Origin: Tribonema minus
Taxonomy: Eukaryota; Sar; Xanthophyceae; Tribonematales; Tribonemataceae
DNA length: 64,000 nucleotides
Assembly (NCBI GenBank): GCA_017506865.1
Contig: JAFCMP010000051.1
Coordinates: forward strand, 124,001 to 188,000
Reading direction: 5' to 3'
Positions 2,023 to 64,000 of the stretch are shown here, one piece after another (the stretch's first letter is position 1; the number at the start of each line of letters is the position of its first letter). Both the position numbers and the translations under genes were made by a program. A model generated the notes under the pieces. That model saw only the letters and a program-made list of their open reading frames with translations. It ran no database searches and was not told the origin of the DNA.

Positions 2023-5000
2023 TCAGGGCTTGGCGCCAACCTCCCTCAGTACCTCGTCGACCGGCGTATAGGTCAGAATGCCCCTGTCGTTGTACTGATA
2101 GACGACCTCCTTGCCGTCAAATATGAGTGTCCTGAGGCAGCAGCAAGACATTCGAGAGGGGGGAATGCTCAGCAAAGGAACGTGTATCGGCCCCATTACT
2201 CAGCATGCCTGCTCATGGTTGAAATGAGCGTGTTTTTGATACACTGTTTTTGTTGGTTCGCGTAGCGCGTGAGGAATACCAGACAAAGATGAGCGTAGCG
2301 TCCTGAGGCAGCAGCAAAGACGTTCAGAAGGGCAACATTGCTCAGCGGAAGAACATACGTCTCACCCCCAGGTCTAGTCACTGAACAGCATGCCTGGTCA
2401 TGGTTCCGATGGGCAATTGGTCACCAATTCTCGTTCCAAGGCATGCAAGAACAATGATGAATGCTTCAATTTTGTGACATCAAAAGTATCTCTTACAGTA
2501 CTTACACTAGTAGCAGGCGGACCGGTCTATTGTCGGCGGAGAATGGCGCACTACAAGTTGGCCAACAGCATTGCATTGAATGCAGCAAGAACCTCAGCTG
2601 AGGTCTTCATCATCATGCTCATGATGTCAAAAATATGCTCACCACTCCTTGTCATCTAGAGATCTACGATATTTTGATTCGTTTTCATCGGGGTTTTGAT
2701 GCATCATCACATGGCATCGTTTTGGGGAGACCAAGCAAAAAAAAAAGTGGGTTACCTTGTACGAGTGCCGTATCTTCACTGTTTTGTTTGTGCAAATGAG
2801 ACAATTGTTACAAGTGGATAAAGCACGCATATTACAATCAAGAAGCCCAGGTATAGGTACCTACTTACCCCCCCTGCCACGTGAGCTCCGTCTTGACGAC
2901 GAAAATGAACGAGTGCCGTATCTTCACCATCGCTTTTGTGCAAATGTGACAGTTGTTACAGATAGGTAAAGCACGCGTTTAATCAACAAGCCTAGGTTTA
3001 GACTACTACTTACCCCCCCTGCCATGTGATGAGCTCCTTGTTGGGGGGGGACAAGTCGTCCCAGCGAGTCACAATCTCGCGCATGTTCTGCACGAAGGCG
3101 GCAAGCAATGCCAGCGCTGACACCGTCAGTGCCAGAGCACAACATATTTCATGAAAGTGATTGTTAGCAAAGGGCTTACCACCCCCAATCAATTTTCGGC
3201 AAGGGTGATTGCCCCCTCCCTTGCTGACTTTATGGCATCGAGTACCCCCAATTACTTATCAGTGAGTCGGAGTCACAATCTCGCGCATGTTCTGCAGGCA
3301 GGCGAGACACAATGCAAGCGCTGACATTGTCAGTGCGGGAGCGTAGTGGTCTGCAACAACCAGATTGACCATCAGTTGAGGGCTTGGCACCCCCAATTAA
3401 TTCTTGTGATTACCAGGAATGATGATTGGCGAAGGGCTTGCCACCCCCTATCAATTCCCGGCGAGGGTGATTGCCCCCCCTACCTCGCTGGCGTGGTGGC
3501 TTCAAAAACCCCCGATTAATCACTGGAGAAGAGGGGCGCAGAAATTGGAATTGGTGGGTAAGCCATAACCCCGACCCTCCAGTTATTCACTCCGCTAATT
3601 CCAGAGCATCAGTGAGAGTGAGCAAGGAAGGCCGCCGCCTTGTTGCCAGTTGCCCGTGCACCAACATATTAGTTGCATCCAGTCGTCTCTTAACACGACA
3701 CGAGCATTGCGTAACTATGCATGGTGTGCGATATCCAATCGCTCACGAACTTTGACACTAAAAATGACCCATGATGACTTGGCCATGAGTGACTAGACGG
3801 GCCTCCGCTCCCTCTCTTTAGATACAGAAGTATGCAATTATCAACTGCCTTACTCTCAGTGTTGCACACAACTTCACACACGGCTGGCATCGGCACCACC
3901 ACTGAGGTGCCCAGGTTCCATTTGAGCACAATGTGCACCTGTTCTCTTAACTTCAACAATTGTGGCACAGCAACCTCTACAGCGTGCATACGTGCAGAGG
4001 TACTAGATGATGACCAGATGCTGCCCATGTGCTGTACTTCTACTTTCTGGTCCAATGCCCTTGCATGGTGGTCCATCGGCTACTCACTCAATACCCGGCA
4101 CCATTTCTTCCCCATCTGCTGCCGCACTGTGGCAACTTCAATACTGTGGCAACTTCAACTTGCGCCTGCGCTCCAAATACTTCAGGACTTGCTTAATCAC
4201 ATACTCTGAATCAACCTGCGCCCGCGCTGTAGCAACTTCAAAAGACCTCGCGCCCTGCGTCCCCAGCACGTTAAACCACTTCATTCTCAACACACCTGCG
4301 GCCGCACTGTAGCAACTTCAAACGGCCGCGCCCCCTGCGTCCCCAGCACATCGAACCGCCTCTTTTCCACCAGCTGCAGCGTGCTCTCAACCACTCACTT
4401 ACTCACTCACTCGCTCATTCACTCTCCACGCACCTGCAGCCGCACTGTGGCAACTTCAAACGGCCTCGCGCCCTGCGTCCCCAACACATCAAAGCGCCTC
4501 TTTTCCACTAGCTGCAGTGTGCTCTCCACCCAGCTGGCATCCGCATCTCGATCGCCGACATAGCCGCGGAGCACTGCCTGGATTGTGCCTGGAGAGCCGA
4601 TGCCGGCCAGCATAGGCAGCAACTTCAAGTATGGGTTCACCTGCGAATCGTGGCATGCGCGGCGTTGAAGTAGGGCATTAATGAGTGTTTTCATGATAGA
4701 GCATGATTGTAGCTAGTCTGTGCTCCAAAGTACGATTGCAGCTGATCAGGAGTGGTTCAGTCCTAGTCAACATAGCCGCGGGGCACTGCCTGGATAGTGC
4801 CCGGAGAGCCAATGCCGGCCAGCATAGGCAGCAACTTCAAGTATGGGTTCACCTGCACAGCGCACGTTGGGTAGGACATTATACTAAGAATGTACTCAGA
4901 CTGTATTCAGAATAACAATTGTCGTTAAACAGGTGGTACAGTCCTAGTCAACATAGCCACGCAGCACTGCTTGAATTGTGCCCAGGGAGCCGATGCCGGC

Positions 5001-6192
5001 CAGCATCGGGCAGCAACTTCAAGTACGGGTTCACCTGCACAACGCACGTTGGGGTAGGACATTATACTCAGAATGTACTTCAGACTGTACTAAATAACAG
5101 TTGTCGTTAAATAGGTGGTACAGTTCTAGTCAGCGCAGCCACAGAGCACTGCCTGAATAGTGCCTGGACAGCCAATGCCAACCAGCATGGACAGCAGCTT
5201 CAAGTACAGGTTCAGCTGTGCAGCGTGATACACACGGCGTTACGGTAGGACGATGCAGTGGGAATGACGTGGGAATGCGAACGACAATACCGGGGCAACA
5301 ACATGAGAGGTTTGGTTTCACCTGCGCACCGACATACAGTTGGAGAAGTAAGTTGCTGTGTGAAAAATGATCCCGGCCAGCATAGTAGCAAATCCCATCA
5401 ACACACGCCACGTAGCCCCTTGAGGTACAAATTTGCATGCAGAGCTGCAGTGATTGTCACTGCTGTCTCGTGTCGATGAGCATGCCATCGATGACAAGAG
5501 TACAGTGTGTGTTGTCCAGGTAATCAGCGGCCATGCTAATCCCCCGCCTCAGTACGCATTGAGCCCGGCGGATGTAGCTGCGTGCATCGTTTTGCAAGGT
5601 CTGCTGATGAAAGCGCATGTACATTGCACCACCGAAGCACACAGCACGCGATGAGTATACGACTCACTTTGACCGGGGGCTGGAACCCCTTGCTGAACCC
5701 CAGCTCCTCATATGCCCGTCCCGTCTCGTCCACATACAGCCGCTGCAACGGAAAGTTGGTCAAGCTTGCAAACTCCTTCGCCGCAGCCACTGTCCCCAAC
5801 CCCACTGCGATCACCTCCGCTCCAGCGTCGTCGATTGCCGGCAGGTAGTGCCTGAGTTTCTGGGCGTACTCCCAGGCGTTGAAGTCGGCGAAGTGCGTAA
5901 GGAATGCTACGACGGTTTTCTTGCCCTTCTTGGCCTTCCAAGCCTGTGTCAAAGGCAGCGGCTGCCCAGTCGCTGCTGACAGTACATTCACCTCTGACAG
6001 GACATCGAACGCCGTCTCGCTGGCGCCTGTTCTGCTGCTCACAGTCGACGAGCTTGCTACCGTGAGAAGTCGCAAGGCCCCTCTGTTACTTGCAATGCGC
6101 AAAGGTGATGCGCTGCCGGGCTGCGCAGCAGGCGTGAATGCCACGGCTGATGCTGACAGTGCCGTCAGCACTAGCGCAAACATGCCTTTCAT
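2023..6192 (-). CDS. PRXL2/AAED1-like thioredoxin-fold protein, plastid-targeted
   Basis: Four exons join in phase: 5668-6192, 4434-4640, 3014-3087 and 2023-2131, giving 304 aa. Introns start GTGAGT, GTGCGT and GTAAGT and end CAG. The start is the Met beginning MKGMFALVLTAL, because it opens a hydrophobic signal peptide followed by SAVAFTPAAQ, an ASAFAP-like ochrophyte plastid-targeting motif. The mature part reads like the AhpC/TSA_2 (PRXL2, AAED1) family: FLTHFADFNAWEYAQKL, IAVGLGTVAAAKEF, LPMLAGIGSPGTIQ, RPFEVATVRLQ, and a terminal TLIFDGKEVVYQYNDRGIL. The Cys-containing motif of active relatives (HFGCPxC type) is replaced by HFADFN, so a classical peroxidatic cysteine is absent, as I recall for some chloroplast AAED1-like members. 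Role inferred: stromal redox-fold protein of unknown reaction. All exons after the first have edge echoes in adjoining introns. Confidence 0.85.
2757..3350 (-). repeat. Echoes flanking PRXL2 exon 3
   Basis: Exon 3 (3014-3087) has an acceptor-side copy upstream at about 3263-3345, repeating the NMREIVTR coding bases. It has a donor-side copy downstream at about 2757-2895, repeating the C-rich donor end and about 110 bp of intron. A smaller copy of the exon 4 acceptor lies at about 2298-2345. Confidence 0.8.
4110..4395 (-). repeat. Donor-side echoes of PRXL2 exon 2
   Basis: Segments at about 4299-4395 and 4214-4290, with a weaker one near 4110-4175, repeat the last bases of exon 2 (the FDVLGTQGARPFEVATV coding part) and the donor side. 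They lie downstream of the real exon on the minus strand, that is, inside intron 2. Confidence 0.8.
4771..5217 (-). repeat. Three acceptor-side echoes of PRXL2 exon 2
   Basis: Copies at about 4771-4854, 4952-5038 and 5135-5217 repeat the first ~80 bases of exon 2 (NPYLKLLPMLAGIGSPGTIQ) with its CAG acceptor and upstream intron. The period is about 182 bp between copies. The real exon edge is at 4558-4640. The copies carry substitutions, and one has lost its frame. Confidence 0.85.
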
Positions 6193-6627: not shown

Positions 6628-6661
<34 letters not shown>

Positions 6662-6745: not shown

Positions 6746-9700
6746 CTACGTCGCGCCCAGCTGCTCCCACTTGTCGCGGTTCTTCAGCTGCTCTTCAGGG
6801 ACATCAGTGAGTTGCCACGTAGGGTTCTGCTGGTCACTGGGGCACATGGCCTTCCTGAAGTCCCGTAGCGCCTCGTTGAGAATCTTGGTGAGCGCACAGA
6901 TGACAAACGCGTGGCGCTTGGCTAGCAGCGGGGACAGGGGAGCCCCATCTAGGTGGTCGGGCTCAATCTGACGGGGGGGGCAGAGGCAGCAGCAGCGGGG
7001 GGGTTTGGGGGGGGGGGGGGGGGGTTCCAGTCAGTTCCTGGGACGTGATTATGTAGAAGCCAATTTAAGCAGTTGCATGTGATTGAACAGTGCCGCGGCC
7101 AAGTTGTGGAGCATGCAGGTGAAAAAAGGAATTTACGACTGATTCTCATCTTACTGCTGGCCTAAGTTGCGCTTGGCAAGAAGCAGGGTCAGTGCAGCAT
7201 CGCCAAGCTGGAATAGGCCAGATCGTCATGTCAGCAACAAGCTTGCACTGGGCGCTGCATTCAAGACATGGTGAACACTAGTGCGACAACTGCAGACTTT
7301 TTCACCAACTAAGTGCAGCCAGATATGTGAAGGGTTGAGCACCATACCGTACTCGTTGCAGTACAACATCAAATGGACCACAAGTGTCAGCTTTAGATTT
7401 CGTCACCCATAAGAGATGCCACCCCAACTACATCGTCTAAACACCACATGCAACAGGGTAGTTCCCAGACGGACTTGAGATTCCTTTCTGAAGGTGAAGC
7501 GAAGAGATCAGCGTCTGGCACCCTCTTCCTTGCACCGCAACGCATAGCAGGGTTTTGTTTCCCCACTCACCTGAATTGCACTATTTGTCCCTTGCAGCCA
7601 AAGCTCTCAATCTCAAGTTCACTATTATGTCTCACCCATCGAGTTGACATAGTGCATTTCGTGTCTGAACCACGGTCTGAACTATTATGAAGCACGCAGC
7701 AGCAGACAAGAAAGTACCTGCTATTTCGCCTTTTTGGTCATCCTTCTAGTTCAGAGTGCATGTGTCCATGAAAGGGGTGTACACTGTGCATGTTTACGGT
7801 CTATCATATTTCAAGGTATATGTGTACTTCTAGACAAGTACTTCGAGTATACACTTTGCAGTATACATAGTCCACAGTAGAGAGGCAAACAGGTACAGGC
7901 ATGTGTGCGTACCTTGATGCGTAGTGATGCCAGGTGGTCAGGGGGGTCCAGCAGGCCTTCGCAACCGAAGCTCTTAACCTCAACTTCACAACTAGAACAC
8001 CCATGGAGTTGACTCTGCGCATTTCGTGTCAAGCACGGTCTCATTGGCTTCCAGGCATACAGCCTCTACATCTACTTGAAGTGTACACTCTGCAGTACAT
8101 GTGTACCTTGATGCGCAGCGAGGCCAGGTGGTCAGGCGGCTCCAGCAGGTACGGAGAGTCACACTTGAAGAGCTCCTGCAGCTTCGGCTCCCACTTCCCC
8201 CACGAGTAGATGCCCACGCGGAAGTGCTGGCAGTAGTGTATCACCACAGGCAGCGCGCTAGTGTCCGGGGCATTGTGCGCGTTGCAAACTTCGTCTTCGC
8301 TGAGCTTGTCAATGAGGGGCCAGCCCTCGTTGCCGTCGTCCGCGTTGGAGACCATGAACGTTCGCACCACTGCAATGCGGGGGGGACAGGCGTTTCGGGT
8401 AGGGTTTAGGCTTAGGGTTGGTGCGTAAACGTGCGCACCACTGCAATGCGGGTGCGGCAGGCATTAGGGTTAGGGCCAGCTTTTACAGGGTTTAGGGTTA
8501 GGGGTAGTTCGCGTCAGACACCATGAACGTGCGCACCACTGCAACGGGGGGGCGGCAGGCGTCAGGTATAGCTTCAGCATTAGGGGTAGGCTTAGGCAAG
8601 AGTTAGTCCGCTCTATCAGCGGTCTCATGCAATGCTTGTATATCTTGCACCGTTGCCATGTAGACAGACTAAGGTTTATGACTATCAATGAGCATAGTAC
8701 ATCGTGTACTGCAAAAGGCAAACTACTTCTATATAAGGATAGCTTAGCAACCTTGTTGAAACACACTCTTATATCTGCAACAGTAACACCATCAAGTAAA
8801 TATCTGAAATCAGGCGAGCACTCATCGGTGTGCAGATGCAACGCACAGCGCACACGTTTCACCATAGCACAGTAGCTCAGCAACCTATCAGCATGTGAGT
8901 TTCAGAATCCGTGCTCAGGGTGTGAGAAAGCCAGATCAATGCACACGTCAACCTGGCTCTGCCAGAGTCTACGTATGCACGTGTGGCAAAAAATCTTCTC
9001 CGTGCATATTGACAATCACTACATCCGTAATTGAATAAGGTGATTCTTGCAGTGCCTACTTTGAAGTATGCATGAAAAAACGCGGCAGCCAAACCACCAA
9101 TGAGCACTAGGGTTAGGGTTAGGTGTGCGTCGCACAAACGCCATGCACAGCGCAAGCATCTCCGACAGGAGGTGCGGGTACTCAATGTATGCATACTTCA
9201 CTATGCTTGCTAGTCAAAGTACTTGACGCGTCACCATATGCATATATGGAAGTATACTACATGTATACGAAAATGTTCAATCCAGCACTCACCAGTGTGC
9301 GGCAGGCGCAGGTGTGCAGATGCGATGCACAGCGCAAACATCTCCGACAGGAGGCGCGGGTACTCAATGAGTACATGATCCAGTGTACTTCTACTGCAAA
9401 GTATACTTCAGTATACTGTAAGTACCTAACGTGTCCCCATATGTGCAAATATAAGCATCAAGATATACAGGACTCACCGGTGTGCGGCAGGCGCAGGTGC
9501 GCGGACGCGATGCACAGCGCAAACATCTCCGATAGGAGGTGCGGGTACTCGATGAGGGAGCGTGGCATGAACTCCACCCACTTGTCGGCCATCTTGAGCC
9601 AGTCCCTCACGTGGGCCACATAGGGGGGCCCTATAGGGTAGTGGTCATCTGCCAGTTGCGGGTCTACGGTAAGGGCTGGGGACTTCTCGTCTTGGACAAT

Positions 9701-12700
9701 GCGCCCGAGACCGTCCCACCGGCGCCATTCACTCCCCAGCCCATATCTCTGCGCAGCACGCATGAGAGCACACTTTAGCAGTTGAGTAGCTGTGCAGGGC
9801 GCTGGTTACTCTGGGGTTTATGATGCACAGCAGCGTACATCTCACAGTTACATCTGTAACAGTTGTTTGGACGATGCGCCCGAGACCGTCCCATTGGCGC
9901 CATTCGCTGCCCAGCCCGTATCTCTGCGCAGCACGCATTCGATCATGATGTAGCAGTGTTTCACAGGGTGCTGATCATAGTGGGGTCTACAACACAACAG
10001 CAGCCTATGTCTCGACCTGACCTGAGGCGGGACGCTACCTAACTACCTCTGCTTCCGTAGAAGAGGTTATCAGTGATGCGAAGGTGTAATGGGGCCAAGT
10101 GCTACACTGCATGTAGGCAGTGAACCAGCGATAACCTTCCTGCATGGTTCCTGCACTTTTGTCGGCCTCCCTCCAATTACAACAACAACCTCCAATTACA
10201 AAAATAACACTATGAGTTTTACAACAATAATCTCCAATTTCAAACTAACACTGCAAGTTCCACAATGGCATACCGACATGTGTAAGCTGCTACCGCTGCG
10301 TCCGGAACGCATCTGTTGTTCATAATTGCCCACCCCCTGTGTGCTGCTTCAACTGCAACTGCAGCTTGCCGTGATGAGGTATGTAGGTATACGCATACTC
10401 AAATGTACCCTACATGTACCAATTATGTACCCCACCTGCAGATGCGGGGTACATACCCCTCAGTAACCACGAGCATGCTGTTGAACCTCATACATACATA
10501 CACCCTCGTGCGCTATGTCCTGGCTGCATACAAGATATATCACAATGGCCCATCTGACATGCACATTGCCGCAGCCACGCCTTTCAATAACAAAAAGTAA
10601 TGATGCCACGCCGGCATGTCTCTTGCAGTACACACAGACTCAGTGTACAGTAATCTACTTGTACTGTTTGTAGGCTCAGTGTACTCTACGTGTACCATCT
10701 GTGTACCCACCTGCGACGCAGGGTACCCCTCAGTGATCACAGGCATGCCATTGAATCTCAGCGGCGGCATGGTGTTCCTATCCGCCAGTATGGTCGTGTC
10801 AGGGTCCAAGAAAGGGGTGAGGGGCTTCATGAACACTTGGTCGGGATCGAGGACGGCTACGATGGTGTTGGTGATGGGAGGGTTGGCGGTTGCCAGGAAG
10901 TGCTGCATGCCAAAGGGCTTGTTGTAGTAGGGGTACCTAGTGGAAGCTCAAGCGGAAGTTGAAGTGCGGGGTGGAAGGAGGGGGGACAGGAATGTCAGCC
11001 ATCAGTCGCAGGAAATTGCTGCCAGAGTCTGACGTACAAGGCATTGTGTAATTGTTTCAAGGTTAATTGAGTGGTGCGCCTACTGTCAGTATATGACCAC
11101 TGATTGATCACTGATTTTATTGTGAAATCGTAGTTGTTGAAAATCGGACTCTGCACGGTGCGCACAAAACTGGGGCACCCGTAAAGTTGATTGATGCTCA
11201 GGTTGAGGTCTGGATCACATGACCACATCTTTGCGCACCATAAAGTATGTAACACAAGGGACACATGAGTTTCTGGTTGCCTGCTTGACATCAACCATCT
11301 GAGCTTCTGTGCGACCCTGAGTGAGATTCAGTAAATGTACACACCGCATGTATCACGTGCCTCGAGTCCAGAACGTACGTGACGGTGGCTGGGGTGTTGC
11401 TTTTACTTGCGGGGGCAAGAGTTCTCAACCATGAGCACTGTACGCGCTGGATTAGAATTGATTGGGGTTAGCAGTCAGCAACAACGCTCAGGCACAACGG
11501 CGCTGCCGGCAGTGAAGTTGCCATACAGCTTGATGTTGCGGCAGGTGCTCCAAAGAACACAAAGTGCAGAGACTGCGCATTATATGTTCCTGTATGAAAA
11601 GTTACACTGTTGAATGCATGCAAGGCGCACTCAAACAGACGTCAGCATCCTGACTGGTAGCCCTGTAACCCTACATAACCCTCGCAATTTGCCGTTAAAG
11701 CTGTCATCACATAAGCTTCAATGTATACTTCAGACCCACAAAAATGGTATTGGCACGCGAGCGAGGTGGAGATATACCTACCTACGCGTGCCTACCTGTG
11801 CCCGGTGCTGCTGATGACGCTGTAGTCTGGCGTGAAGTGCACGCGGTGGTGCGGAGGCATGTGCTGGTGCAGCTTAAGTATCTCCGTTTGCTGTGCATGC
11901 GCAGAGAAGTAGCAGGGCAACCAACATGTCAGCCCCTCTGTGCGCGCAACTGGAACTTGAAGTTACAAAGCCGTGCTCAGCACAGGAGGCATGTGCTGGT
12001 GCAGCATCAGTATCTCCGTTTGCTGTGCGTGCACGCAGAAACAGCAGGGCAATCAACGCGTCAGCCGCTGCTGACCCTGGAAATTGAAGTTACGGAGTCG
12101 TGCTCAGCACATGTTGAAGTTGGCTTTCTGCTGAGCACCGCTGTGTCGGTTGTAAGGGTGGACATGGGGAGCAGATATTGCATGCTGTCAATTTCAGTTT
12201 TGTCAAGCTAGCTCAAGTGGAAAAGTTCAAGTCTGGTTGCACTGAAACTTCAAAATCTAGAGCTGAAGTTGAACTTTATGCTATTTGCGAGGCACGAGGT
12301 TATGAGTGAAGCACCTCCATACAGGTGTGACAAAGCTGACGGTAGCGGCTGGCGGCGGGCATGAGCGCATGCAGGGATCACCACACGAATTAAGTTTGGC
12401 CATTTTTATTGCAGTCTGTTGGCGGCAGTGTGTTAGGAGGACTCTCTGCTCAAACTTCAAACCAAGCTCGCGGAGGCAGTCCGTGGCGAGACTTTTGATC
12501 CCACGCACACGGGCATCAGTGCGCGGCTGAAGAGCTACCGGTACCTTGCCACGTGATTTTGGCAGTTGCTAAGAAAGATCTCTTTGTTCAAACCTTGAGC
12601 CAACAGCTTGTGCTCCGGCTGCTTTCAGAAGCGGCAGCCTTACAGACGCAACAGACATGCTGCTCACTTGAGCTCTTCTGAGCAATGCCGCGTCGCGTCA

Positions 12701-29830: not shown

Positions 29831-29849
29831 CAGGCAGTTTGGTCGTCAC

Positions 29850-31640: not shown

Positions 31641-31645
31641 GGTAC

Positions 31646-44608: not shown

Positions 44609-46604
44609 TGCACGCTCATACTTCATGTTGAAGTATGACGTGCTCTGGATGCCCACACGGACCCCTACTACGAGTGCATGGACAACTGATGCACACCCAC
44701 AACTCGCCTAGCCTCGCGGAGAAAGAAGCAGGACATGGCCGTCCGAGACCTTTCATCCAAAGCACGTGCAATTTCAACTTGAAGTATGGTGTCACGCCAT
44801 GCACGCCCGCAGGTCATCGCCGCCGTGGCCTTCCCTGAGGGGTCCATGCGGTCATCCACAGCACGTACTACTTCAACTTGAAGTATGGTGGACGCCGCAG
44901 CGTGCATATGCAGTGCGCCGTGCGTTGAGACAGCGAGCGCGGGGGTCGGCCGCTGTTGTCCGGCGGGGAAGCTCATGCAGGTGCAGAATGTGATGCTGAA
45001 TGTATCCCGTGGCGTACGTATGAGTTTGTGGAGCAGAGGGGGGAGGGGTGGGGGGGGGGGGGGGGGGGTCAACTGTATATGTTGCAGTTGGTATATCATG
45101 TATTTGTGGCTTTGATGGCTGGGTATAGGTGGAGCGCGTTGACCGCAAATGTCATAGGCGCTGGCAGAAACTGCGGATTGCTGCAGCGTTGTAAGACCGC
45201 ATTGTCTTCCAACTTTGCACTTCAGCCTGGCTGTGGGGGGCGCAACGCTCAGCTGAATGCTGAATCAGCATACAGTAGGTATGCACTACATGCAGGCCCG
45301 AGCAGAGACTTGTGTAACGTCTACATGGCGGCAAAGCATTGTGTGTAGAGCGCAGAGGGAGAGCGCAGGAGGCATTCAAACATTGATTGCGGGGTATGTA
45401 GGTATATTGCTGAGACCCATGTACATTGCGGGTGCGCAAGTACACGTGTCCATATGTAGTATGCAGAAAGGTTACTGCTATACATCAGTACCATGTCTGG
45501 CACGCTACATATTGAGGATAGCCTGACAGCTGCGTTGAGTCCAGAGGCCCTCAATCGTTGTAGCGTTGCCCAGGCATGAACTTCATGCAAATCAGCACGC
45601 CAGCGCTCAACATCAATGCTATATGCTTTTCTTTCATTCCAAACGATCATCGTTCGTGATCATGTGGTGCGCATTGCTCTACCTGGACTTGCTCTTGCTT
45701 GCTCCATATTTATGGCACATGTAATGCATTTTTGCCTCTCCATGTTGGTCTGTTCAGCCTGAGGTTGACCACTGTGGCGTCTTCTTCCTGCTGTGCCAAC
45801 TGCACACATGTTCACACATGACCTTGAACTTCACATCCTATGCATGCCTGGACCACCAACGTTAAATTGTGAGCACACCAGCAGCTTCGCAAATGTGCAA
45901 CTCCTGATGCTTATGGGATGCATTGTTGCAAGTTGAGCAGGGTTTGGTAGTTGTGCGTGCGCCCAAGTCGAGAGATTTGTTGCTCACATTCTGTGACAAT
46001 AGATTTCAGAAATCATGACGCGTCTTGAGCTAGCGGCACAACCACAATTTCGAGCCTGCGCTCATGCGCTTCCTATGTAGCTCATGAAGTGTGCCCTGAG
46101 AGACTGTCCTGAGAGACTGTGTTCTGCAACTCTGCATACTTGAAATGAGGCGCCAGCGACAGCTCAGGATCCTGTGCGTCGGTAGTAGTCTATGCGATTG
46201 CATGGATCTCAATACCTGTGCTGCACAGGTGTTGCCGAGCAACAGCTCGTGCATCAGTACTGTAATACTCGTAGCACAAATTTCACCAGCTCCTGTAGAT
46301 TACTACCTCAGCATGTATTGCTGTGCCGATTGAATCTGTTTCCATAGATACCTGCACAAGGGGCCTGCTCACTGTGCAGTACAGAGAAGCAGCTGCAGTG
46401 CACGAGTTTTCATGCCAGCATCATGACTCGCATATCTGTCAGCATGTGCAGAGTTGCTGCAATTTGTAGATGTTGCCATTAATATTTGACTACGAGGTGT
46501 GTGTGCAGTTCATTTGCTGTTAATAGAGTCACCATTAGAGTGATGCTGCACTGAGCATGGCCAAATTGATTGAAGGCTGCAATAATATATTGCTGCCCCA
46601 TCAC
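44609..46604. other. Intergenic DNA with repeats; no confident gene
   Basis: It starts with a copy of the preceding exon's end (44665-44700). Then come two copies of a block with CAACTTGAAGTATGGTG near 44770-44795 and 44870-44890, and a 17-base G tract at about 45051-45068. Short open frames after 44810 have exon-like edges, but I cannot assign them. Confidence 0.5.
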
Positions 46605-53200: not shown

Positions 53201-53544
53201 AGGGCTGGTGGGTCCCGTGCAACGCGGACGTGATAGTGCGCTTCGCGACGGCGGACGCCGCAACGGTGCGCGCGGTGGGGACGCCGTGGGGCGCCGCGGC
53301 GCTGCCGTGCGCGGTGGAGCCGCGCTGCGCGGGGCTGGCGCGCATGCGGCACACGGCGGCCGCGGGCTGGGGCAAGAAGGGGCACTGGGAGCGGGAGGCG
53401 TCCCCCTTTTCCGCTGCTGCTGATGGCGTGGCAGAGGGGGGAACAGGGGGGGTGGGCATGAATGACGCCACCGCTGCCGTCGCCGCTGGCATGCAAGAAG
53501 CGGAGAAGCAGGAGGCTGCGGAGGCGGTGGCGGCGGAGGCGTAG
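47272..53544 (+). CDS. Secreted alpha/beta hydrolase (serine hydrolase, lipase/esterase-like)
   Basis: Four exons join in phase: 47272-47353, 48200-49113, 50794-51137 and 53025-53544, giving 619 aa. The start MQLSTALLAVTACLSCAFAQ is a clear signal peptide, so the protein enters the secretory pathway. Residues ~157-164 (RLAVLVHG) form the strand-HG oxyanion region. LPLLPGHG (~188-195) follows, and GGFSAGG (~250-256) is a classic nucleophile elbow with Ser253. The fold matches monoglyceride-lipase or carboxylesterase-like hydrolases; the Asp and His of the triad cannot be fixed by eye. Exon 3 carries a Cys-rich block (TEMCGTCCDEEHCSWFDEY) that may form disulfides. The long C-terminal part is not part of the minimal fold and I do not recognise it. 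Every intron holds edge echoes: two before exon 2, about four after it, four before exon 3, five after it, and two before exon 4. Confidence 0.85.
47871..48080 (+). repeat. Acceptor-side echoes of hydrolase exon 2
   Basis: Copies at about 47871-47935 and 48017-48085 repeat the CTCGCAGGCG acceptor and the bases coding STNCSATADAA. The real edge is at 48200. Confidence 0.88.
49283..49830 (+). repeat. Donor-side echoes of hydrolase exon 2
   Basis: Copies at about 49283-49320, 49398-49497, 49570-49645 and a remnant near 49810 repeat the coding bases for WVNKLRMEGKWYDV and RYSGHPWRIFQ with a GTGAG donor. Most are followed by an ACTTCAA/TTGAAGT hairpin. Confidence 0.88.
50203..50705 (+). repeat. 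Four acceptor-side echoes of hydrolase exon 3
   Basis: Copies at about 50203-50275, 50343-50405, 50507-50575 and 50634-50705 repeat the CAGGACCGC acceptor edge and the coding bases for GRKGFLVTTRSHQMRLL. The first two have lost the plain acceptor; the last two keep CAG. The real edge is at 50794. Confidence 0.9.
51186..51850 (+). repeat. Donor-side echoes of hydrolase exon 3
   Basis: Copies at about 51186-51258, 51339-51412, 51514-51588, and partial ones at 51710-51775 and 51815-51850, repeat the coding bases for EMCGTCCDEEHCSWFDEYDD. Four keep a GACAGGTGA- or AACAGGTGA-type donor and stay open in frame. Each is accompanied by a TTCAA/TTGAA or GAAGT hairpin. Confidence 0.9.
52529..52910 (+). 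repeat. Acceptor-side echoes of hydrolase exon 4
   Basis: Copies at about 52529-52568 and 52838-52912 repeat the bases coding HPELGHLLHTPDCA. The second extends to the GPDTD coding bases. Confidence 0.85.
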
Positions 53545-54834: not shown

Positions 54835-57800
54835 ATGACTGCTCAAGCTGCAAAGGTGCCTTTGCCGCCCACAAAACTCATTGGTTCTGCAGCAGGCAAT
54901 CATGCTGCTGCGTACAGCACACCAGCACCAGCTGCAGCAGCGCCGCTCACGCTGGATCGCGTCATGGGACAGACCTGCCTGCACAACAGTGCCCTGTCGG
55001 TCAACCCTGTCACTGGCGATGTGGTAAGTCGCGTTCATTATAGCTGCTCGTGCACTGCATGTATGCATTTTGTATTACTCTTCCAACTTGCTCTTCCTCC
55101 TTCTACTGCAAGATCGCCTGAAGTTGAATTCGCACCGTTCGTGTGCAGGCGTATCCGGCTGGGTGCGTGGTGGTCATCTATCAAGTGAGTACTGCTGCCG
55201 CTGCTGGATTTGCCTTGCGCCCAGCAGTTGAAATTTCACTCATCGTGCAACAGCACCGATTCTTGGCGTGTCGTCTGATTTCTGTTTGTTGGGCCACATT
55301 GTGCGCCGCTGTGTTGCCCAAGCTCGCTGTGGCTGATCAGACATCAATTACCGAGAGGGTCACTGGCAGTGTCATAGGTACTGTGTCTGTGCGCGCATCC
55401 ATATTGGCACACAGTGTCTTCAATATGCAATCTTAAGGACACATCCAGCAGGCTGTCTGGTGGTGTGACAACCACGCACTTAGAGAGAGAGAGACTATGA
55501 CCAATATCAGAGTTGGGCGAAGCGACGTCGTGACACTCAAGTATCCGCTGCTTCACGACGCATTCGACATGTACAATGCAGACATGGTTATTCATTTCAT
55601 AAATGTTTTAATTTATTCGTGGGTGCGAACGATGCACTGGCAAAGCAGTTGCGGTGCAGACATTCATTTATAAGAACAAGTTCTTGAACTTTTGGTTTTG
55701 TGAACCTTCGAATGTGGCTCATTGCTGAGCACTCCTCCATTGCTATCGCCTACATGAACAGTTACTACAGTTTGCATGTATCGTTGCTGAGCGTTGCTGT
55801 CCTATTTGAGCGTTGCTGTCCTATTGCCGCTGAGCGCTGCAGCCGCGCTGCAACAGTCACATCAAAACAGTTACCACAGTTACATGAACAGATATTACAG
55901 TCGCATGTATGCTCGATGCTGAGCGTTGCTGTCTTGTTGCCGTTGAGCACTGCAGCCGCGCCGCAACAGGCAGTTCCGCTACTTTCGCGCGGGGAAAACG
56001 GTGAGCTGCCTGGCGTTCAGCAGGGATGGGAGCATGCTGGCGGTGGGGGAGAGGGGACACTTGCCTTCCGTCATTGTGTGGAAGCTGGCGACAGGTGTGC
56101 ATATTGTCTGCGGGATAATAGCACGCATATCTGTACTTTACAGTTTATCGTTTATGCTTCCAAAGTATATGCGTTGCTGCACATGGTGTATATGGCGGTG
56201 GGGGAGAGGGGGCACCTGCCATGCGTAATTGTGTGGAGGCTGGCGACAGGTGCGTGGTGACTGTGTTATAAAGGCATATTACACTTGTACATCTATACTT
56301 CAAGAAACAACCTCAAAGACTGTACCATGGCATATGTACTTCAGGTATATTCACTTGAAGTATAGTGATGTGTACTTCCGGGGGGTATGTGTACCTCAAA
56401 GTGTATGTGGCGGTGGGGGAGAGGGGACACCTGCTTTCTGTCATTGTGTGGAAGCTGGTGACAGGTGTGCAACGGTGAATACGTAAAAGCACTAGAGTAT
56501 TATCATCAAGCATTAGAATTAAATTCAAATTTACCTCAAGCTTTAAATAATATTGCAGTCATTTATCATTATCAAGGAGTTTGACCGTAGGACAATGTAA
56601 TAGCTCACAATAGATGTAGTGCATATACCTCAAAGTGTATTGAATCCCGAAAGGTTGGGCACTTCAATCGTGATGAATGTATTATGCTTCGGAGCTTGTC
56701 GCATCGGTGTACCTGAGCATGAGCATGGGCAGTTGCTACACGGCATATTAAAAAAAGTAGCACATGTATGCGCACAAGGCACAATAGCTTGCCTCAATAG
56801 GCGGACAGAGGCAAGAGGTTTGCCTCAGAGCGTTTCGTAAGTAAGGTTTTCTGGTCATGCTCCTGCGTTGGTGATCTGTCAACGCACTGGTACCTTGAGA
56901 TGCCCGGTATCATGTGCTTCGGCGTGTATTAAAGACATGTGCAGTGCCTTTGCGTGCTGATGAAGCACTGTTGAAGATTGCCATGCAGTAAGTTAAGGTA
57001 CCATGCACCATATGCAGGTGTGGTACTGGCGGATGCGAAGGTATGCCGTCAGCATGGCAGTTACAATAGGAAGTGATACCTGAGAAACTGATTGAAGGTG
57101 GCGGTCCATGTGGAGATGCCAAATGCCCAGAAATGTGGTACACCAACAAAGCTAACAAGTACACGCGTTCGAATCCTAGGTCAAGCGGTCTCTTGTCAAA
57201 TGCTTGTTCGGAAGGCGGTGCTTGCATATATGCCAGGTGGGGCTGTGCAAGTGCCAAATGTACTGAGTCATGACGTGACAGCTGAACTTCGGCTTACGTT
57301 GCATATTTCAGAGAAGTCCATCGCAGGCATGCGTGTGTAGAAGTAGTACATACTTCTGAGGAATTAACTGCAACTGCTCATGAAAGCAAGGTAAGTAGTA
57401 CTTCTAGAGGTAGAAGTTCATATGGAAATGGCTGACATATAAAGTGCATACGAACTGAGATGTGTATGTGTTACTTCAAATGTGAAAGTTGTGCATGTGT
57501 GACGCACCTACAGGCGTTGTGCTTGCGGAGTTTAGAGACAGGCCACAAGTCGGTAATAAACTTGAAGTCTTGTGCTGCAGGAGTGCGTCAATAATGAAGT
57601 TCGTGTACTTCTATGTGTGATGCACCTGCAGGCGTCGTGCTGGCAGAGTTCAAGGGCGGCCGCAAGTAACGAGACTTACTCCAATAACTTCAATAATGAA
57701 GTTTGTGCATGTGTGACGCACCTGCAGGCGTCGTGCTGGCGGAGCTCAAGGGCGGCCACAAGTATGGTGTGGCGTGCCTGGCATTCTCCCCACAGGGCAA

Positions 57801-60800
57801 CGCACTGGTATCGGTGGGGTTCAAATATGACAGGATGCTGCAGGTGCGTGTATTGGTTCAAATACTTCAAGTTCAAGTAGTGTAGTGCTCATACGTTTTG
57901 GCATTCTCGCCACAGGGCAGCGCACTAATGCTACAGGTACATGATTGTCAGCGGTATTATTTTATTGTCGCAGCTTAAATTTCAATCAGGTGCACTTACA
58001 TGTATACTTCCAAGCAGAAGAAAGCATACGCTTTGGCGTTTCTCAGTGGATGACAGGATGCTGCACGTGCGCAATAGGCATATTTCTACACTCACCCCAA
58101 AGTATACATAACGCACTTATGTATGGTGATAGTAGCAGTACACTGTATTGCTTGTACATGTCTAATGACGTTCTCCGCGCAAGGCAGCACAGCCATATGG
58201 GTGTGATTGGCATTTGACAGGATGCCATAAGAGCAGAACAGTTTGCCTTCTGCGGCACGTAAGGTACCCTGAGACTTAGAAAGAGCTAGGCTGGTTCACC
58301 CTAAGTGTGCATGGCAGGCCCTTTATTGCAATGAGCTTGCAGATAGCATGTACGTACCTGGCTTACCAGTTCATGGCATAGTCAACTGCGCACTTCAGTG
58401 CCTTGAGAGCAAGCTACACTACGCTGCATGATCAAGAAAGAAAACCCGGACACAATTGATAGCACTAAGAATCTCAGTGCACACGAAAGGTTGAAGCGTG
58501 TGACAAACACACCTTGCTGACTGGCCCTGCTGAGGTTCACAGTGTGCCTGCGGAAATGTGTATATGATGGGGTGCCTGCTGGCATGTCGGTCATGGAGCA
58601 CTGCGAAACGCTGCACGTAACCGCTGTAACCGCTTTAACCGCTGGACACCTCTGACACATGGTGTACAGCAACAGAGTGGTGCATACCAATTCTTTGCCA
58701 TACCGCCATACCTACCGTATAGCACTGCTTTTTATATGGCAACGTGTAGATGCATGGTGTGATGTGCTATATATGTGTTTGTGTGCTGTATGTATGTGCA
58801 GGTGTGGGACCTGAGCACTGCTGCGGACGCTGGCCCGCCCGCATCCCCTGTGGACCTGGAAGCAGAGGTGCGTAACATGTGAATTGTGAGCACTTCAAGT
58901 GCTGCTATGGAGGAGCATTTGTTTTCAAGCGCAAGCGTCATGGGTCCGCATGATGCGACGTGTGCATTTGTGTATGCATACATGGCAAACACCCGGGTAA
59001 CGTTCTTGATGAGAAAAGGGCACCACTTGTGACTTCAAACTATATGCCGCAGCAGCGCTCAGCGCCAACAGCGCATGGCACCCGCACGGCTCAGCCAGCA
59101 CGCGGGGGCTCCACTTTATGACATGGGCATAAAACTCAGGAATATTACTAACAATTGCTTTCTGCAAACACGCTTTCAGGAAATAAACTCATTTTGTACG
59201 ATGAAGCAACGCTCAGCGTCCAAGCGCTGAGCTTTACAGCTTAGCCAGCACGTGGAGGGCTCCACTTGATCATACTTCTAAGCATTAGGGTTAGGGTAAC
59301 CCTAACCCTAACCCCAACCATACCTCCAAGCCATGAGACTCAGAAGCATCTCTCATAATCACTGTCTGTTGACAATAGGGTTGGGGTTAGGGTGAGGGTT
59401 AGGATTAGGGTTAGGTTTAGGGTTAAAGTTATAACTGCGTCAGCACTGCTCAGCGCCAAACCGCGTGTGGCACGCGGCACGCCTCACCCAGCACATGCGG
59501 GCGCCACTATATTATGATACGTTGTCAATATTGGGCATCAAACACGGGAGCACCGCAAATAGTCTTTTTCTGTAAACGTACTAATAACCTCTCTGTGTAT
59601 GCCGCAACAGCGCTCAGCGCCGAAGCGCATGGCATGCGCACGGCTCAGCCAGCATCACTGTGATACAGTACGTTGTTAATAATGGGTATCAAACACAGCA
59701 GTCTCCTTCTGTATAAATGATTGTTTTTGTGTGTGCTGTAGCAGCGCTCAGCGCAAAGCGTGGGGCGTGCGCACGGCTCAGCCAGCGCGTGAGGCACAGC
59801 AGTGCTCTACTCTACTCATGACTTGACTCATGTGGCGCATTCGCGACAATGCTGCGTCCCGCATGACAATGGGCATCAAACACGGGAGCACCACTAATTA
59901 CCCCCTTCTGTGAACGTACTGAAAACTTCTTGTGACTTTGCAGCAGCGCTCAGCGCTGCAGTGCGTCGCGTGCGCACTGCTCAGTCAGCTCATGGGGGGC
60001 GCCTCTTTATTACAGTACATTGTTTGACAATGACTTATTAATGAGCATCGAACACAAGAGCATCGAACACAAGAGCACCACCAATAGTCTCCTTCAATAT
60101 AGGCACTAATAAACCTACTTGTGAACGCTGCAGCACCGCTCAGCGCCGAAGCTCGTCGCGTGCGCACGGCTCAGCCAGCACCACTGTGTCACAATGCGTT
60201 GCTAAGAATGGGCATCAAAGACGGGAGCACCAGCAAGAATCTCCTTCTGTAAACGTACTCATAACCTCTCTGTGTATGCCGCAGCAGCGCTCAGCACCGA
60301 AGCGCGTGGCGTGCTCACGGCTCAGCCAGCGCGTGAGAGCGGTGGACTTCAGCGACGACGGACAGTTCTTTGTCACGGCGGGCGACGCCGGCCACGTGGT
60401 GTTTTGGCACATGGACGGCGCAGCAGGAGCGACACAGGTGAACTTCAATACTGCCTTGAAGTATGTATGCAGGGGTGTATTCTACCATGATACCAGTAGA
60501 TAGATCTATAGGGTCAGGGTTAGGGTCAGCAACCAGTTCTTTGTAACGGCGGGCGACGCGGGCCACGTGGTGTTCTGGCACATGGATGGGGGAGCAGCAA
60601 CAACACAGGTGAACTTCAACACTGCTTCCGGTATGTATGTATTGTCACGGAGGGCGATGCCGGTCACATGCTGTTCTGGCGCATGCATTCGCAGAGCAGC
60701 AGCAATACAGGTAAACTTTAAAAATGCATGGGGTGAAAAATGATGAGTTCGTTCTCAGCGCTGGCCACGTACGGCATGCCTTGCATCGAAATTTCAAGAT

Positions 60801-63800
60801 GCTTCAACTTGAACTGAGACATCAACGCTCCGTGCGCTCCCATTTCCACATGCAGAACGGCGCTGACAATGAGGAACACGCAATTGGACGGCGTTCCCTG
60901 CATTCATTCTGTGCACTTGAAGCTGATATACTTCAACTTGAACTGAGACAAAATCGTGTCGTGCGCTCCAATTTTTGTGAACATTGCAGAGCAATGCTGA
61001 CAACGAGAAAGGCGTGATACACGGTGTTCCCTGCCTTTGTCATCTGCATTTAGACATACTTCAAATTGAACTCTAACACCGGCGCTGTGTACGCTCCTCG
61101 TGCAGAGCGATGCTGACACCGAGGAACACGCGGTGGATGGCGTTCCCTGCATACAGGGCACACCCGCCAGCATTGAAGAGGACTTGAGAGACAGCACGTT
61201 TATGGACGTGGCTTGCGATAGGGGCGGGGAGGGGGAGGGGGGGGCGGCCGCGGGGCTGAGCACTGTGTTCTGCGTCACATCGAAGGGGATCCTGTGCACC
61301 TTCTCTCGGTGCGTGCCCGCAACAGCTGCAGTGCAGGGTTTTCATGTACTGCAAGCATATATACCAGTACTACAAAGACGTGCATTGAGTAAAATGTGTT
61401 GGGGGGGAGGGGGAGGGGGGCGCTGCCGCCGCGGGGTTGAGCACTGTGTTCTGTGTCACCTCCAAGGGGGTCCTGTGCACGTTCTCCCGGTGCGTGCGCG
61501 CAACAGCTGCAGTGCTCAGTGCTTTTATGTACTTCAAATATGTATATATCAGTCCAAGTACTACAAGAAGTCGTTTGAGTATTACGCGTCGGAAGGAAAC
61601 TCTCGCTGTGTTCTGTGTCACCTCCAAGGGGGTCTTGTGCACGTTCCCGCGGTACGTGCGCGCAACAACAGCAGCAGTGCTCAGGCCCCTTTGTTTATGA
61701 AGATGTACTGCAAATAAGCCCTTTGAGTTGCACGTGTCGGCAGAAGATGCTCGCTGGGTTCTGCGTCTATTCGTATACTTCTATAAACTTGAAGTATGCA
61801 ACTGCTATGATGAAGTCGACTACGACTAAGTCTACTACAAAGAAGTTCTTTGAGTATTGATTTCTAGCTGGTATCTCTCGCAAGTACCATGAAGAAGTCA
61901 CTTGAGTATTACCTGTTGGCAGGAAACTCTCGCTGAGTTCCGCGTCACCTCCAAAGGGATCCTGTGCGCGTTCTCCCAGAGTGCTCAGTCTACAGTGTTC
62001 ATGAAAAAGTACTGCAAAGACGTCCTTTGAGGTATCAACACACACGCGTCGGCAGGAAATGCTCACTGTGTTCTGCGTCTATTTTGTATGGAAGTACTTC
62101 TTTATTCTTGGAAGTATACAAGCACTACGATGAACTCTACTGCGACTTAGTCTAGTTCAAAAGGAGTCATTTGAGTATTGATTTCTAGCAGGACTCTCTC
62201 GCTGTGGCGTGCGTTGCTGTCTAAGGTGATCCTGTGTTTGAGTTCTTGGTGCAACAGCCATGATACTCTGTGTACTGTAAAGAACTGTTCATGTGTGAGT
62301 TCTCACTGTTCTCCCAATGCGCAAATGTCCGCAGCAACAGCCGCCGCAATCAGATTTTCCTCAGCAAGTGCCCGGTTCAACACCGGGGCGTCTGCTGCCA
62401 TCTTGTGAGTTTACGCCACAGTAAACATCATCACCCTGAATGAATATGACTGCGTGTCAACCTCCGTAACAGCCTCGTCCACCTCTGAATGCAACTTGTC
62501 TGCCCCCTCTTGACTCTGCCTTAGGGGTCACAACCTCAACATGCTTCTATATATGTGTATGCTTTGAACACCAACATGCCTAGTGCACACACGCCCTAGT
62601 ACCCCTACCCTTAACGCCAACCCCGTAAGTGATGTAGTTTATAGCGCGTGTGTGTCTGCGGCTTGTTGCAAGGAGTGTTTGGAGGTGACCGCTTACACAA
62701 TTCTTTTGTTTTGTCCTTTTTGAAATACAGAAAGAGTCAGGCTGACCCAATTTTCATTGCTGCTGCAGAACTCACGTCATGGAGCAGTGGGTAACAATCA
62801 AGAGCGCCACTGCCTACGGCGTCTCTGCTTAAAACAGCATGTCTCCTATACCTCCGCCTGTGGTGGTATATGCCTCATGGGCCAGAGTGCCACCCTTTCC
62901 TTTGCCTCCTCTTTTTTTTGTAAAAAATATATATACTTCTAAGAGGTAGGTACCTGTGGGGTCTAAAGCCAGCTATCTCTGGTTGCCTCTGCAGAACGCA
63001 TGTCATGGAGCAGTGGGTTACGCTAGAGAGCGCCACTGCCTACGGCGTTTCCGTTCAGGATGGCATGCTCGCCGCAGCCTGCTGCAACGGCGTCATCAGG
63101 CTCTTCAAGTTCAACTCAACTTCAAGTAACTCAACTTCAAGTGAGGGTGACGCATGCTCCAAGTTGCAGTACGTGGCCACCCTGCCCAAGCCGCCGCCCC
63201 TGGGACACGCCAACGTGGCCAGCCTCCAGGTACTCAAGGACTTGTGACTTGTACAGAAGAGTCTGACTGACTGAAGTCATGCAGGAACTCAAGGACTTAA
63301 ACAAATAGAGTCTGACTCATTGGCGCGTACTTCAGTAATGATGGTACTTCACGTGCATGTGCCAGCATGTAGGTAGGTAGGTACATAGTAGTGTTTTCGT
63401 GCACGGCTTGAACGTCTTCTTGCGTGCGGTGAAGTGTGGGCATTAAGGGTACAAACCCCATTTTTCATGTCAGGAAGGCCCCCCTCAGTGTTATTTCCTC
63501 AAATGCACTTTGATATCAAGGTCGATCATCATTTGAAGTTACCACTTGGGTCCCAGTCAGCTCTCAGTACCTCTTTCAGCACAGTGCTGACCTAACTGTA
63601 ACCCTACATACCCCTTGCGTACTGCGACCAGGAGCAAGAGCTACAATCAGTTGAAGTTACCGTCTGGGACCATTTGAAGTTACCGTATGGGTCCCAGTCA
63701 GCTCTGAGTGCCTCTCCTGCGCAATGCTAACCCAACTCAAGCCCTACTTCTTACGTATTCCGAGCAGGGGCTGCAAGAGCTGCAATCAGTTGGAGTTTGG

Positions 63801-64000
63801 GTCCCAGTCAGCACTGAATGCCTCTTCTGCGCAGTGCTAACCCTAATCGCTTACCCTACATACCCCTTGCGTACTGCAAACCAGGAGCTGCAAGAGCTGC
63901 AATCAGGCAGCAGCATGGAATCAGCATTGTCACCTCAGTGCGGTGCGGACGGCGCAGCAGCAGCTGCTGAGCACTGCTATGCAGCAACGCTCGGCGTCAG
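54835..64000 (+). CDS. WDR62/MAPKBP1-type WD40 repeat protein (5' part, runs off the window)
   Basis: Ten exons were found: 54835-55023, 55149-55184, 55974-56094, 57728-57843, 58802-58867, 60285-60437, 61106-61308, 62995-63229 and 63885 to beyond 64000 join in phase, making nine here with the tenth and later ones presumed outside. The visible protein is about 411 aa. WD40 landmarks in order are [43 protein letters not shown] followed by [55 protein letters not shown] followed by [34 protein letters not shown] and [15 protein letters not shown]. The block order and the LPKP signature match WDR62/MAPKBP1, a scaffold with tandem beta-propellers linked in animals to JNK signalling and spindle poles. 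The role in algae is unknown. Exon 60285 has a NAGNAG acceptor. Introns are crowded with edge echoes. Confidence 0.87.
55785..55860 (+). repeat. Acceptor-side echo of WD40 exon 3
   Basis: Repeats the upstream intron block with TTGCTGTCCTATTGCCG and CGCTGCAACAG that precedes the real acceptor at 55973. Confidence 0.75.
56191..56470 (+). repeat. Two donor-side echoes of WD40 exon 3
   Basis: Copies at about 56191-56258 and 56403-56470 repeat the bases coding [17 protein letters not shown] with the GACAGGTG donor. The second abuts a plastid DNA fragment. Confidence 0.9.
56471..56580 (+). other. ycf3: Plastid DNA insertion (NUPT): ycf3 fragment
   Basis: This 110 bp is sharply AT-rich (about 30 percent GC) against its surroundings. 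It reads [18 protein letters not shown], then [18 protein letters not shown], which is the third TPR motif of Ycf3, a photosystem I assembly factor encoded in plastid genomes. The frame is open throughout. It lies inside WD40 intron 3, directly after a donor echo, and cannot be expressed as Ycf3. The intact frame and plastid-like codon use suggest a recent transfer. Confidence 0.88.
57506..57670 (+). repeat. Acceptor-side echoes of WD40 exon 4
   Basis: Copies at about 57500-57552 and 57620-57670 repeat CACCTGCAGGCGTCGTGCTGG and following codons ([11 protein letters not shown]). A fainter one lies near 57013. The real edge is at 57728. Confidence 0.85.
57898..58240 (+). repeat. Donor-side echoes of WD40 exon 4
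   Basis: Decayed copies near 57898-57940, 58030-58078 and 58163-58230 repeat parts of the bases coding AFSPQGNAL and DRMLQ. Confidence 0.7.
59040..60284 (+). repeat. Array of seven acceptor-side echoes of WD40 exon 6
   Basis: Echoes start near 59046, 59200, 59437, 59600, 59738, 59940 and 60127; the real exon follows at 60285. Each holds the GCAGCAGCGCTCAGC acceptor edge, the bases coding [10 protein letters not shown], and about 100 bp of upstream intron including GGGCATCAAACACGGGAGCA. The period is about 140-235 bp. Confidence 0.92.
60533..60715 (+). repeat. Donor-side echoes of WD40 exon 6
   Basis: Copies at about 60533-60608 and 60648-60712 repeat the bases coding [15 protein letters not shown] with donors GTGAAC and GTAAAC. 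Confidence 0.9.
60733..61040 (+). repeat. Acceptor-side echoes of WD40 exon 7
   Basis: Copies at about 60838-60905 and 60965-61035, with a weak one at 60733-60785, repeat the CAG acceptor and the bases coding [14 protein letters not shown]. The real edge is at 61106. Each is preceded by a CTTCAACTTGAACTGAGA-type block. Confidence 0.85.
61405..62250 (+). repeat. Donor-side echoes of WD40 exon 7
   Basis: Copies at about 61405-61495, 61605-61660, 61740-61770, 61925-61985, 62060-62090 and 62200-62250 repeat parts of the bases coding [16 protein letters not shown], with decay increasing away from the exon. Confidence 0.85.
62758..62850 (+). repeat. Acceptor-side echo of WD40 exon 8
   Basis: Repeats the CTGCAGAA acceptor and about 70 coding bases (HVMEQWV...ATAYGVS) before diverging. 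The real edge is at 62995. Confidence 0.92.
63625..63800 (+). repeat. Acceptor-side echoes of WD40 exon 9
   Basis: Copies near 63631-63655 and 63768-63797 repeat the CAGGAGCAAGAGCTACAATCA-type edge (coding ELQELQS) found at 63885, together with about 100 bp of upstream intron. Confidence 0.85.

Follow-up and report, generated by a model that had tools for sequence, protein, structure and literature searches.

Side-ordered tandem arrays of exon-edge copies in the introns of a 64-kb window of the Tribonema minus genome

Introns in a 64,000-nucleotide stretch of the Tribonema minus genome (Xanthophyceae; contig JAFCMP010000051.1; the whole stretch is referred to as the window) carry tandem arrays of partial copies of the edges of their flanking exons, with copies of an acceptor edge lying upstream of the exon and copies of a donor edge lying downstream of it. 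This exon-edge copy pattern is genuine in the window. Arrays occur in 22 of the 27 introns that we modelled, on both sides in 11 of them, and their span, taken from the true junction to the outermost copy and including one weak 26-nt match (C1_don), amounts to 41% of intron length. Intron growth is usually attributed to mobile elements; a first-pass annotation of this DNA had proposed instead that introns are built mainly by serial tandem duplication of exon edges. That proposal holds in part: 41% of intron length lies in recognisable arrays, and the word "mainly" is unproven.

All tests were internal to this single window of one sequence. The gene models draw on Pfam matches, a PDB match and a fixed-parameter exon model with hand-chosen seeds, with splice sites corrected by hand, and comprise eight genes (A, B, C, F, G, H, I and K) with 35 exons and 27 introns, the introns totalling 32.05 kb (mean 1187 bp). 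Guanine–cytosine (GC) content is 54.8% for the window, 65% in exons and 51% in introns. Skipping the copies leaves open, in-phase coding sequences (CDS) for genes A, C, F, H, I and K; the CDS of gene B breaks phase after exon B2, which shows that its model lacks an exon or boundary. The edge-query, repeat-coverage, junction-alignment and codon-position divergence runs predate small corrections to exons A3, F4, I4, K3, K7 and K9, and their junction counts are slightly off at these edges. The polarisation, hairpin, family-linkage, nearest-copy, breakpoint, intergenic and CDS-end, extent and whole-exon tests used the corrected exons, with the breakpoint, spacing and extent analyses reusing the earlier junction alignments.

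When the window was compared with itself (E ≤ 1e-6), direct repeat pairs numbered 96 and inverted pairs 5, and all but one of the direct pairs (95 of 96) were less than 3 kb apart. Using 54 edge queries (27 acceptor and 27 donor, up to 60 nt, E ≤ 0.01, matches overlapping the query exon excluded), we found 72 gene-strand copies, every one in the intron that adjoins the queried edge and not one across the exon in the intron at its other end; at least one copy was present for 33 of the 54 edges (17 of 27 acceptors, 16 of 27 donors). Matches elsewhere comprised three on the same strand, one noncoding and two in other exons, and eight on the opposite strand. Whole-exon queries, which do not presuppose edges, gave 73 matches when all 35 exons were compared with the exon-masked window: 70 on the same strand within 1.5 kb, two on the same strand far away, and one far away on the opposite strand. 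The side rule held in all 70 local copies, the 33 upstream copies matching the 5′ half of the exon and the 37 downstream copies its 3′ half, two of these lying beyond the stop codons of genes C and H. None of the 73 matches was a copy of a whole exon; copies reached at most 114 nt from the exon edge, and copy depth fell from about 1.1 per edge at 0–19 nt to zero past 120 nt. Junction alignments were laid out head-to-tail, in support of the tandem duplication across junctions that had first been proposed, with 70 of 129 high-scoring segment pairs crossing the junction, 9 confined to exon and 50 to intron. The geometry, strand and side of the copies are demonstrated by these comparisons, which bear out the earlier count of more than 50 copies and its statement that the sides never mix. 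The claim that every multi-exon gene is affected has to be narrowed to six of seven (A, B, C, F, I and K), gene H having only a stop-codon copy at the thresholds used. Within introns, 36% of bases fall in local direct repeats (30% after exon masking); the share is 21% for exons and 3.2% for unannotated sequence.

Successive copies are spaced at a median of 165 bp (interquartile range 135–194, n = 69), and 64 of the 69 spacings fall between 80 and 270 bp, slightly wider than the 90–235 bp first reported. A hand-made table of unit sizes, with one value for each of 33 families, gives a median period of 169 bp, an intron part with a median of 104 bp and a minimum of 41 bp, and an exon part of 22–97 nt (median 57). 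Within arrays, exon breakpoints are mostly shared: they differ by a median of 4 nt, compared with 19 nt when shuffled (21 families, 64 copies), and 50 of 86 same-array pairs agree within 5 nt. Among the 40 copies of the 10 larger arrays, the closest sequence was the true edge for 20 and another copy for the other 20. Shared breakpoints together with this copy-to-copy likeness favour a single founding event at each edge, after which the array expanded in register. By our reading, the outermost copy is the most diverged in 8 of the 10 arrays (p = 7e-4), its distance being possibly inflated where its flank extends past the duplicated unit.

The position of the breakpoints also bears on selection. 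Random placement, with the exon part uniform up to the period, was rejected (Kolmogorov–Smirnov test, p = 2e-6), whereas the data fit a placement in which at least 40 bp of intron (p = 0.09), or at least 60 bp (p = 0.4), remains at the true junction. This fit with a 40–60 bp remainder indicates that surviving duplications look random, limited by a working true splice site, and the selection filter that had been invoked to account for the side rule is thereby supported.

We consider it probable that introns in the window are lengthened by a junction-spanning founding duplication, selection, and then expansion of the array in register. The sequence of events that we infer would begin with a tandem duplication of roughly 100–270 bp across an exon–intron junction, taking in the last tens of bases of the exon edge and about 100 bp of adjoining intron. 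Survivors would be those in which the outermost junction, adjoining the intact exon, retains working splice signals, and a junction kept functional in this way would place copies of the acceptor side upstream and those of the donor side downstream. Homology among the repeats would then allow the array to expand in register through slippage or unequal exchange. Away from the true exon, copies would be free of constraint and would decay, the outermost usually most, while the spliceosome would skip them.

Some results weigh against this account, and we give them here with the alternatives on which they bear. Random duplication followed by selection leaves unexplained both the near-absence of families from intergenic DNA and the scarcity of intron-only families. 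Intergenic DNA (8.1 kb, in intervals picked after the repeat-coverage result, with small numbers) held no repeat families where 8.6 were expected (P = 2e-4). When exons were masked to keep their conservation from aiding detection, and with a lenient linkage margin of 30 bp, we found 34 intronic families, of which 29 were linked to an exon-edge copy, two abutted an exon and three did neither; that 31 of 34 touch or are linked to exon edges is not predicted by random duplication. A null model in which random duplications survive if they are intronic or span one junction predicts about 79% intron-only families at present intron lengths, compared with the 3 of 34 observed, and a junction-spanning share that rises from 21% at present lengths to 39% when introns are half as long and to 94% when they are a tenth as long. 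The comparison suggests either that founding events took place when introns were about 130 bp long or that junctions were favoured. Splice sites are not the only places affected, since copies of the CDS end lie past 2 of the 5 stop codons; none of the 7 start codons has a copy upstream of it. On these small numbers the process may be limited to transcribed DNA. A tentative reading, to which we give clearly less weight, is that duplications are made or retained only at CDS boundaries within transcription units, at exon edges and at certain stop codons. The junction-linked process behind them, which might be tied to transcription or to the change in GC from exon to intron, would then be a major intron builder in this lineage.

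It is improbable that the exon edge was tandemly duplicated anew, at random, for every copy, which is how the serial process was first described. The side rule and the decay of copies would hold under such independent events as well, and unequal exon parts (97/60/26 in A2_don and 36/85/72 in I2_don, with further cases in I4_acc and K4_don) speak for them and against a founding event with in-register growth. Most arrays, however, retain one exon breakpoint, and half of the copies in the larger arrays are nearest to another copy. The tandem part of the original claim therefore stands, and its independent repetition does not. The copy nearest to the exon is also the one most like it in just 4 of 10 arrays, and nearer copies are little more similar to the exon than farther ones (48 versus 32 pairs), which also sits poorly with the founding-event account. 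A conveyor model, in which the newest copy always adjoins the exon, was tried and is weak on the same pair counts.

Slightly less probable again is that the copies serve as genuine exons, alternative or cassette, or as elements that function in splicing. Their splice dinucleotides are often intact: depending on the alignment used, 22 or 27 of the 31 donor copies retain GT, and 33 or 29 of the 38 acceptor copies retain AG. Intact sites score far higher than random intronic GT or AG. The many decoy splice sites first annotated are there: the score of the true site is equalled or exceeded by 13 of 31 donor copies and 15 of 38 acceptor copies, and nothing in the scored set suggests that decoys are being removed. 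Copies and exons differ at about 12% of sites overall; unpolarised, these differences are concentrated at third positions (9.2, 8.1 and 20.0% at codon positions 1, 2 and 3), and copy-specific changes are synonymous-like in 79 of 199 cases against 28.7% expected neutrally (p = 9e-4). These splice-site and substitution results could be read in favour of exons. Against the founding-event account, the WDR62-like protein of gene K also scores slightly better with the copies included (Pfam 194.9 versus 188.2 bits), its match falling in five stretches with them and in two without, and the gene models are our own, based on sequence. Polarised in families with at least two copies, however, copy-specific changes number 59, 61 and 79 at positions 1, 2 and 3, which do not differ significantly (p = 0.13), and exon-specific changes number 6, 7 and 25 (28 synonymous, 10 not), so that the unpolarised excess is explicable because the exons themselves change at third positions. 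Divergence at positions 1 and 2 is about half that of the intron part (19.5%), as expected for free copies. The synonymous-like excess could stem from older copies keeping a base later changed in the exon, and weak constraint on some copies may also contribute. The frame is broken by 23 of the 31 gap runs found where copies match exon sequence, no copy comprises a whole exon, and reading frames close properly without the copies. The decay claimed for the copies is demonstrated, as is the lack of strong constraint on them; frame-breaking gaps and an apparent near-absence of constraint make ordinary exons unlikely.

That introners or other mobile elements fill these introns is very improbable: a dispersed hairpin motif (ACTTCAA..TTGAAGT; 44 sites, 33 of them in introns) would suit such elements, whereas similarity is local, a distance of more than 3 kb separating just 1 of 96 direct pairs (4 of 129 when the threshold was relaxed), and the hairpins are not close to duplication breakpoints. 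An assembly artefact or collapsed haplotypes we judge equally remote, as copies in most arrays differ by 5–25%, lie on a single strand and obey the side rule.

The founding duplication has a counterpart in tandem genomic duplication as a route of intron gain (the Rogers model, PMC3443670; a potato RdRp case, in which the duplicate covers intron–exon structure, PMC4974935). Both involve a short tandem duplication within a gene, with splice signals coming from the duplicate, and the direct head-to-tail layout is seen here as well. There the outcome is a new intron, whereas here existing introns would lengthen with the mature CDS apparently unchanged, and arrays are present in the majority of the window's introns. 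In place of a new intron between duplicated AGGT or similar sites, we found copies inside introns between in-phase exons. Gao and Lynch reportedly described in 2009 internal gene duplication and tandem exon duplication that include exon sequence; the arrays likewise arise within genes and take in exon sequence, yet only exon edges are copied and the copies seem to lie outside the CDS. Tandem or mutually exclusive exons would be whole exons with open frames, in contrast to the partial, frame-broken copies seen here. Intronic minisatellites are arrays of tandem units that apparently expand in register, and the common boundaries of the present units resemble them, whereas these units carry an exon edge with its splice site and are tied in position to the junction. 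Introners (PMC9860276) are similar sequences dispersed across genes and likewise add intron sequence in algae. The arrays here resemble only their own exon edge, and highly similar introns at many sites were not seen in the window. Searches of the open-licence literature listed no paper that presents arrays spanning junctions as a general way for introns to grow. In this one 64-kb window, the elementary step is ordinary; its pervasiveness and its tie to exon edges are unusual.

The arrays constitute a concrete, datable record of intron lengthening, and the presence, next to each true site, of many others with near-normal strength amounts to a natural experiment on how the spliceosome chooses among near-copies. 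Unconstrained copies preserve earlier states of the exon, by which the exon's own changes can be polarised. If the pattern is genome-wide, duplication would be a route of intron growth alongside transposons and introners. Positions of the arrays and genes are given in Table 1.

Table 1. Exon-edge copies and gene models in the window (numbering from the first base of the window).
Feature	Position	Strand	Details
Acceptor array 5′ of exon A2	4641–5225	-	copies 4793–4852, 4975–5034, 5157–5214; exon part 83/83/79 nt
Donor array 3′ of exon A2	4113–4433	-	copies 4296–4355, 4216–4275, 4116–4158
Acceptor copy 5′ of exon A3	3088–3518	-	3270–3291 + intron part
Donor copy 3′ of exon A3	2758–3013	-	2865–2895 + intron part
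Acceptor array 5′ of exon B2	13803–14405	-	copies 13933–13992, 14126–14185, ~14369–14405
Donor copy 3′ of exon B2	13311–13343	-	
Acceptor copy 5′ of exon B3	11985–12111	-	
Donor copy 3′ of exon B4	10404–10490	-	
Acceptor copy 5′ of exon B5	9867–9957	-	
Donor copies 3′ of exon B5	9138–9371	-	9295–9352, 9138–9187
Acceptor copies 5′ of exon B6	8428–8596	-	
Donor copy 3′ of exon B6	7906–7955	-	
Copy of exon C2 positions 52–93, 5′ of C2	20105–20146	+	
Donor array 3′ of exon C3	21249–21733	+	21249–21290, 21464–21512, 21673–21730
Gene C CDS-end copy including stop, past stop codon	23034–23117	+	90-bp duplication, 96% identity
Acceptor copies 5′ of exon F3	38430–38629	-	
Donor array 3′ of exon F3	37162–38011	-	6 copies; exon part 68/67/66/73/68/50 nt
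Acceptor array 5′ of exon F4	36356–36789	-	3 copies; exon part 48–49 nt
Donor array 3′ of exon F4	35841–36190	-	3 copies
Gene H CDS-end copy, past stop codon	44663–44689	+	
Acceptor array 5′ of exon I2	47788–48199	+	47887–47923, 48043–48082
Donor array 3′ of exon I2	49114–49640	+	49281–49315, 49428–49486, third copy at distance 526
Acceptor array 5′ of exon I3	50191–50793	+	4 copies; exon part 71/70/71/70 nt
Donor array 3′ of exon I3	51138–51847	+	5 copies; exon part 68/66/69/68/57 nt
Acceptor copies 5′ of exon I4	52535–53024	+	52535–52560, 52852–52911
Donor copies 3′ of exon K3	56193–56464	+	
Acceptor copies 5′ of exon K4	57473–57727	+	
Donor copies 3′ of exon K4	57904–58065	+	third, weaker at 58171–58225
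Acceptor array 5′ of exon K6	59043–60284	+	7 copies; exon part 46–57 nt
Donor copies 3′ of exon K6	60541–60727	+	
Acceptor copies 5′ of exon K7	60862–61034	+	
Donor array 3′ of exon K7	61309–62202	+	61431–61490, 61606–61652, 61933–61975 + weaker copies
Acceptor copy 5′ of exon K8	62769–62825	+	
Acceptor array 5′ of exon K9	63530–63884	+	
Gene A, PRXL2-like (AhpC-TSA_2)	2023–6192	-	exons 5668–6192, 4434–4640, 3014–3087, 2023–2131
Gene B, HPAT-like, model incomplete	6746–17241	-	Pfam HPAT 33.3 bits; exons 16923–17241, 13607–13802, 11796–11890, 10711–10936, 9478–9748, 8107–8369, 6746–6967
Gene C, DC2/ODAD1-like	17584–22984	+	exons 17584–18555, 20217–20468, 20923–21105, 22751–22984
Gene F, partial	36233–39445	-	exons 39290–39445, 38982–39032, 38012–38194, 36233–36355
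Gene G, XPA-like			single exon
Gene H	42135–44608	+	exons 42135–43394, 44486–44608
Gene I, alpha/beta hydrolase-like	47272–53544	+	exons 47272–47353, 48200–49113, 50794–51137, 53025–53544
Gene K, WDR62/MABP1-like, start uncertain, continues past window end	54964–64000	+	exons 1–5: 54964–55023, 55149–55184, 55974–56094, 57728–57843, 58802–58867; exons 6–9: 60285–60437, 61106–61308, 62995–63229, 63885–64000

Several of these models have matches in addition to their frames. The in-phase CDS of gene A, open to its stop, matches AhpC-TSA_2 at 62.6 bits across exon joins, compared with 45.1 bits for the open reading frame of exon 1 alone. Gene C, also open and in phase, matches ODAD1_CC (96.7 bits, the best stretch spanning the C1–C2 join); the open reading frame of its exon 1 matches DC2 in the PDB, and one scan of viral_contigs found no relatives of that exon. 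Gene I is in phase and open to its stop (Abhydrolase_1, 35.1 bits). All exon joins of gene K are in phase, and it is named by resemblance only because its PF24780 score of 188.2 bits lies under the family cut-off of 496.3.

The hairpin ACTTCAA, with a loop of 0–15 and TTGAAGT as its second arm, has sites that partly overlap and are partly multiplied by arrays (for example 37277–37292, 44870–44884, 49380–49397 and 60442–60462). Of 25 permuted-arm controls, 24 gave 0–8 sites and one gave 27; single motifs number 98 against 8.5 expected. Hairpin-driven duplication was considered and rejected: with 56 of 89 copies testable, hairpins lay within 30 bp of breakpoints at a rate of 0.20 versus 0.15 under the null, and the family median distance was 369 versus 260 (p = 0.996).

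Other repeats of the window include interstitial telomere-like TTAGGG/CCCTAA tracts at 15240–15440, 36909–36945, 59280–59425 and elsewhere, several of them intronic, with the 7-mer AGGGTTA occurring 38 times against 3.4 expected. A degenerate CAGCAA..GCTCAGC array at 14571–14989, in intron 1 of gene B, is one of the three families unlinked to an exon edge, and a 49-bp unit is repeated 2.9 times at 95% identity at 40879–41021, downstream of the XPA-like exon on the minus strand. An uninterrupted, 1702-codon frame at 24744–29849 on the minus strand resembles long interspersed nuclear elements (LINEs) and has a weak match to reverse transcriptase, its RVT_1 score of 28.9 bits falling under the cut-off of 29.6. 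A tRNA-Ser(TGA) gene at 29749–29830 on the same strand lies at the 5′ end of this LINE-like frame, which suggests insertion beside a tRNA gene.

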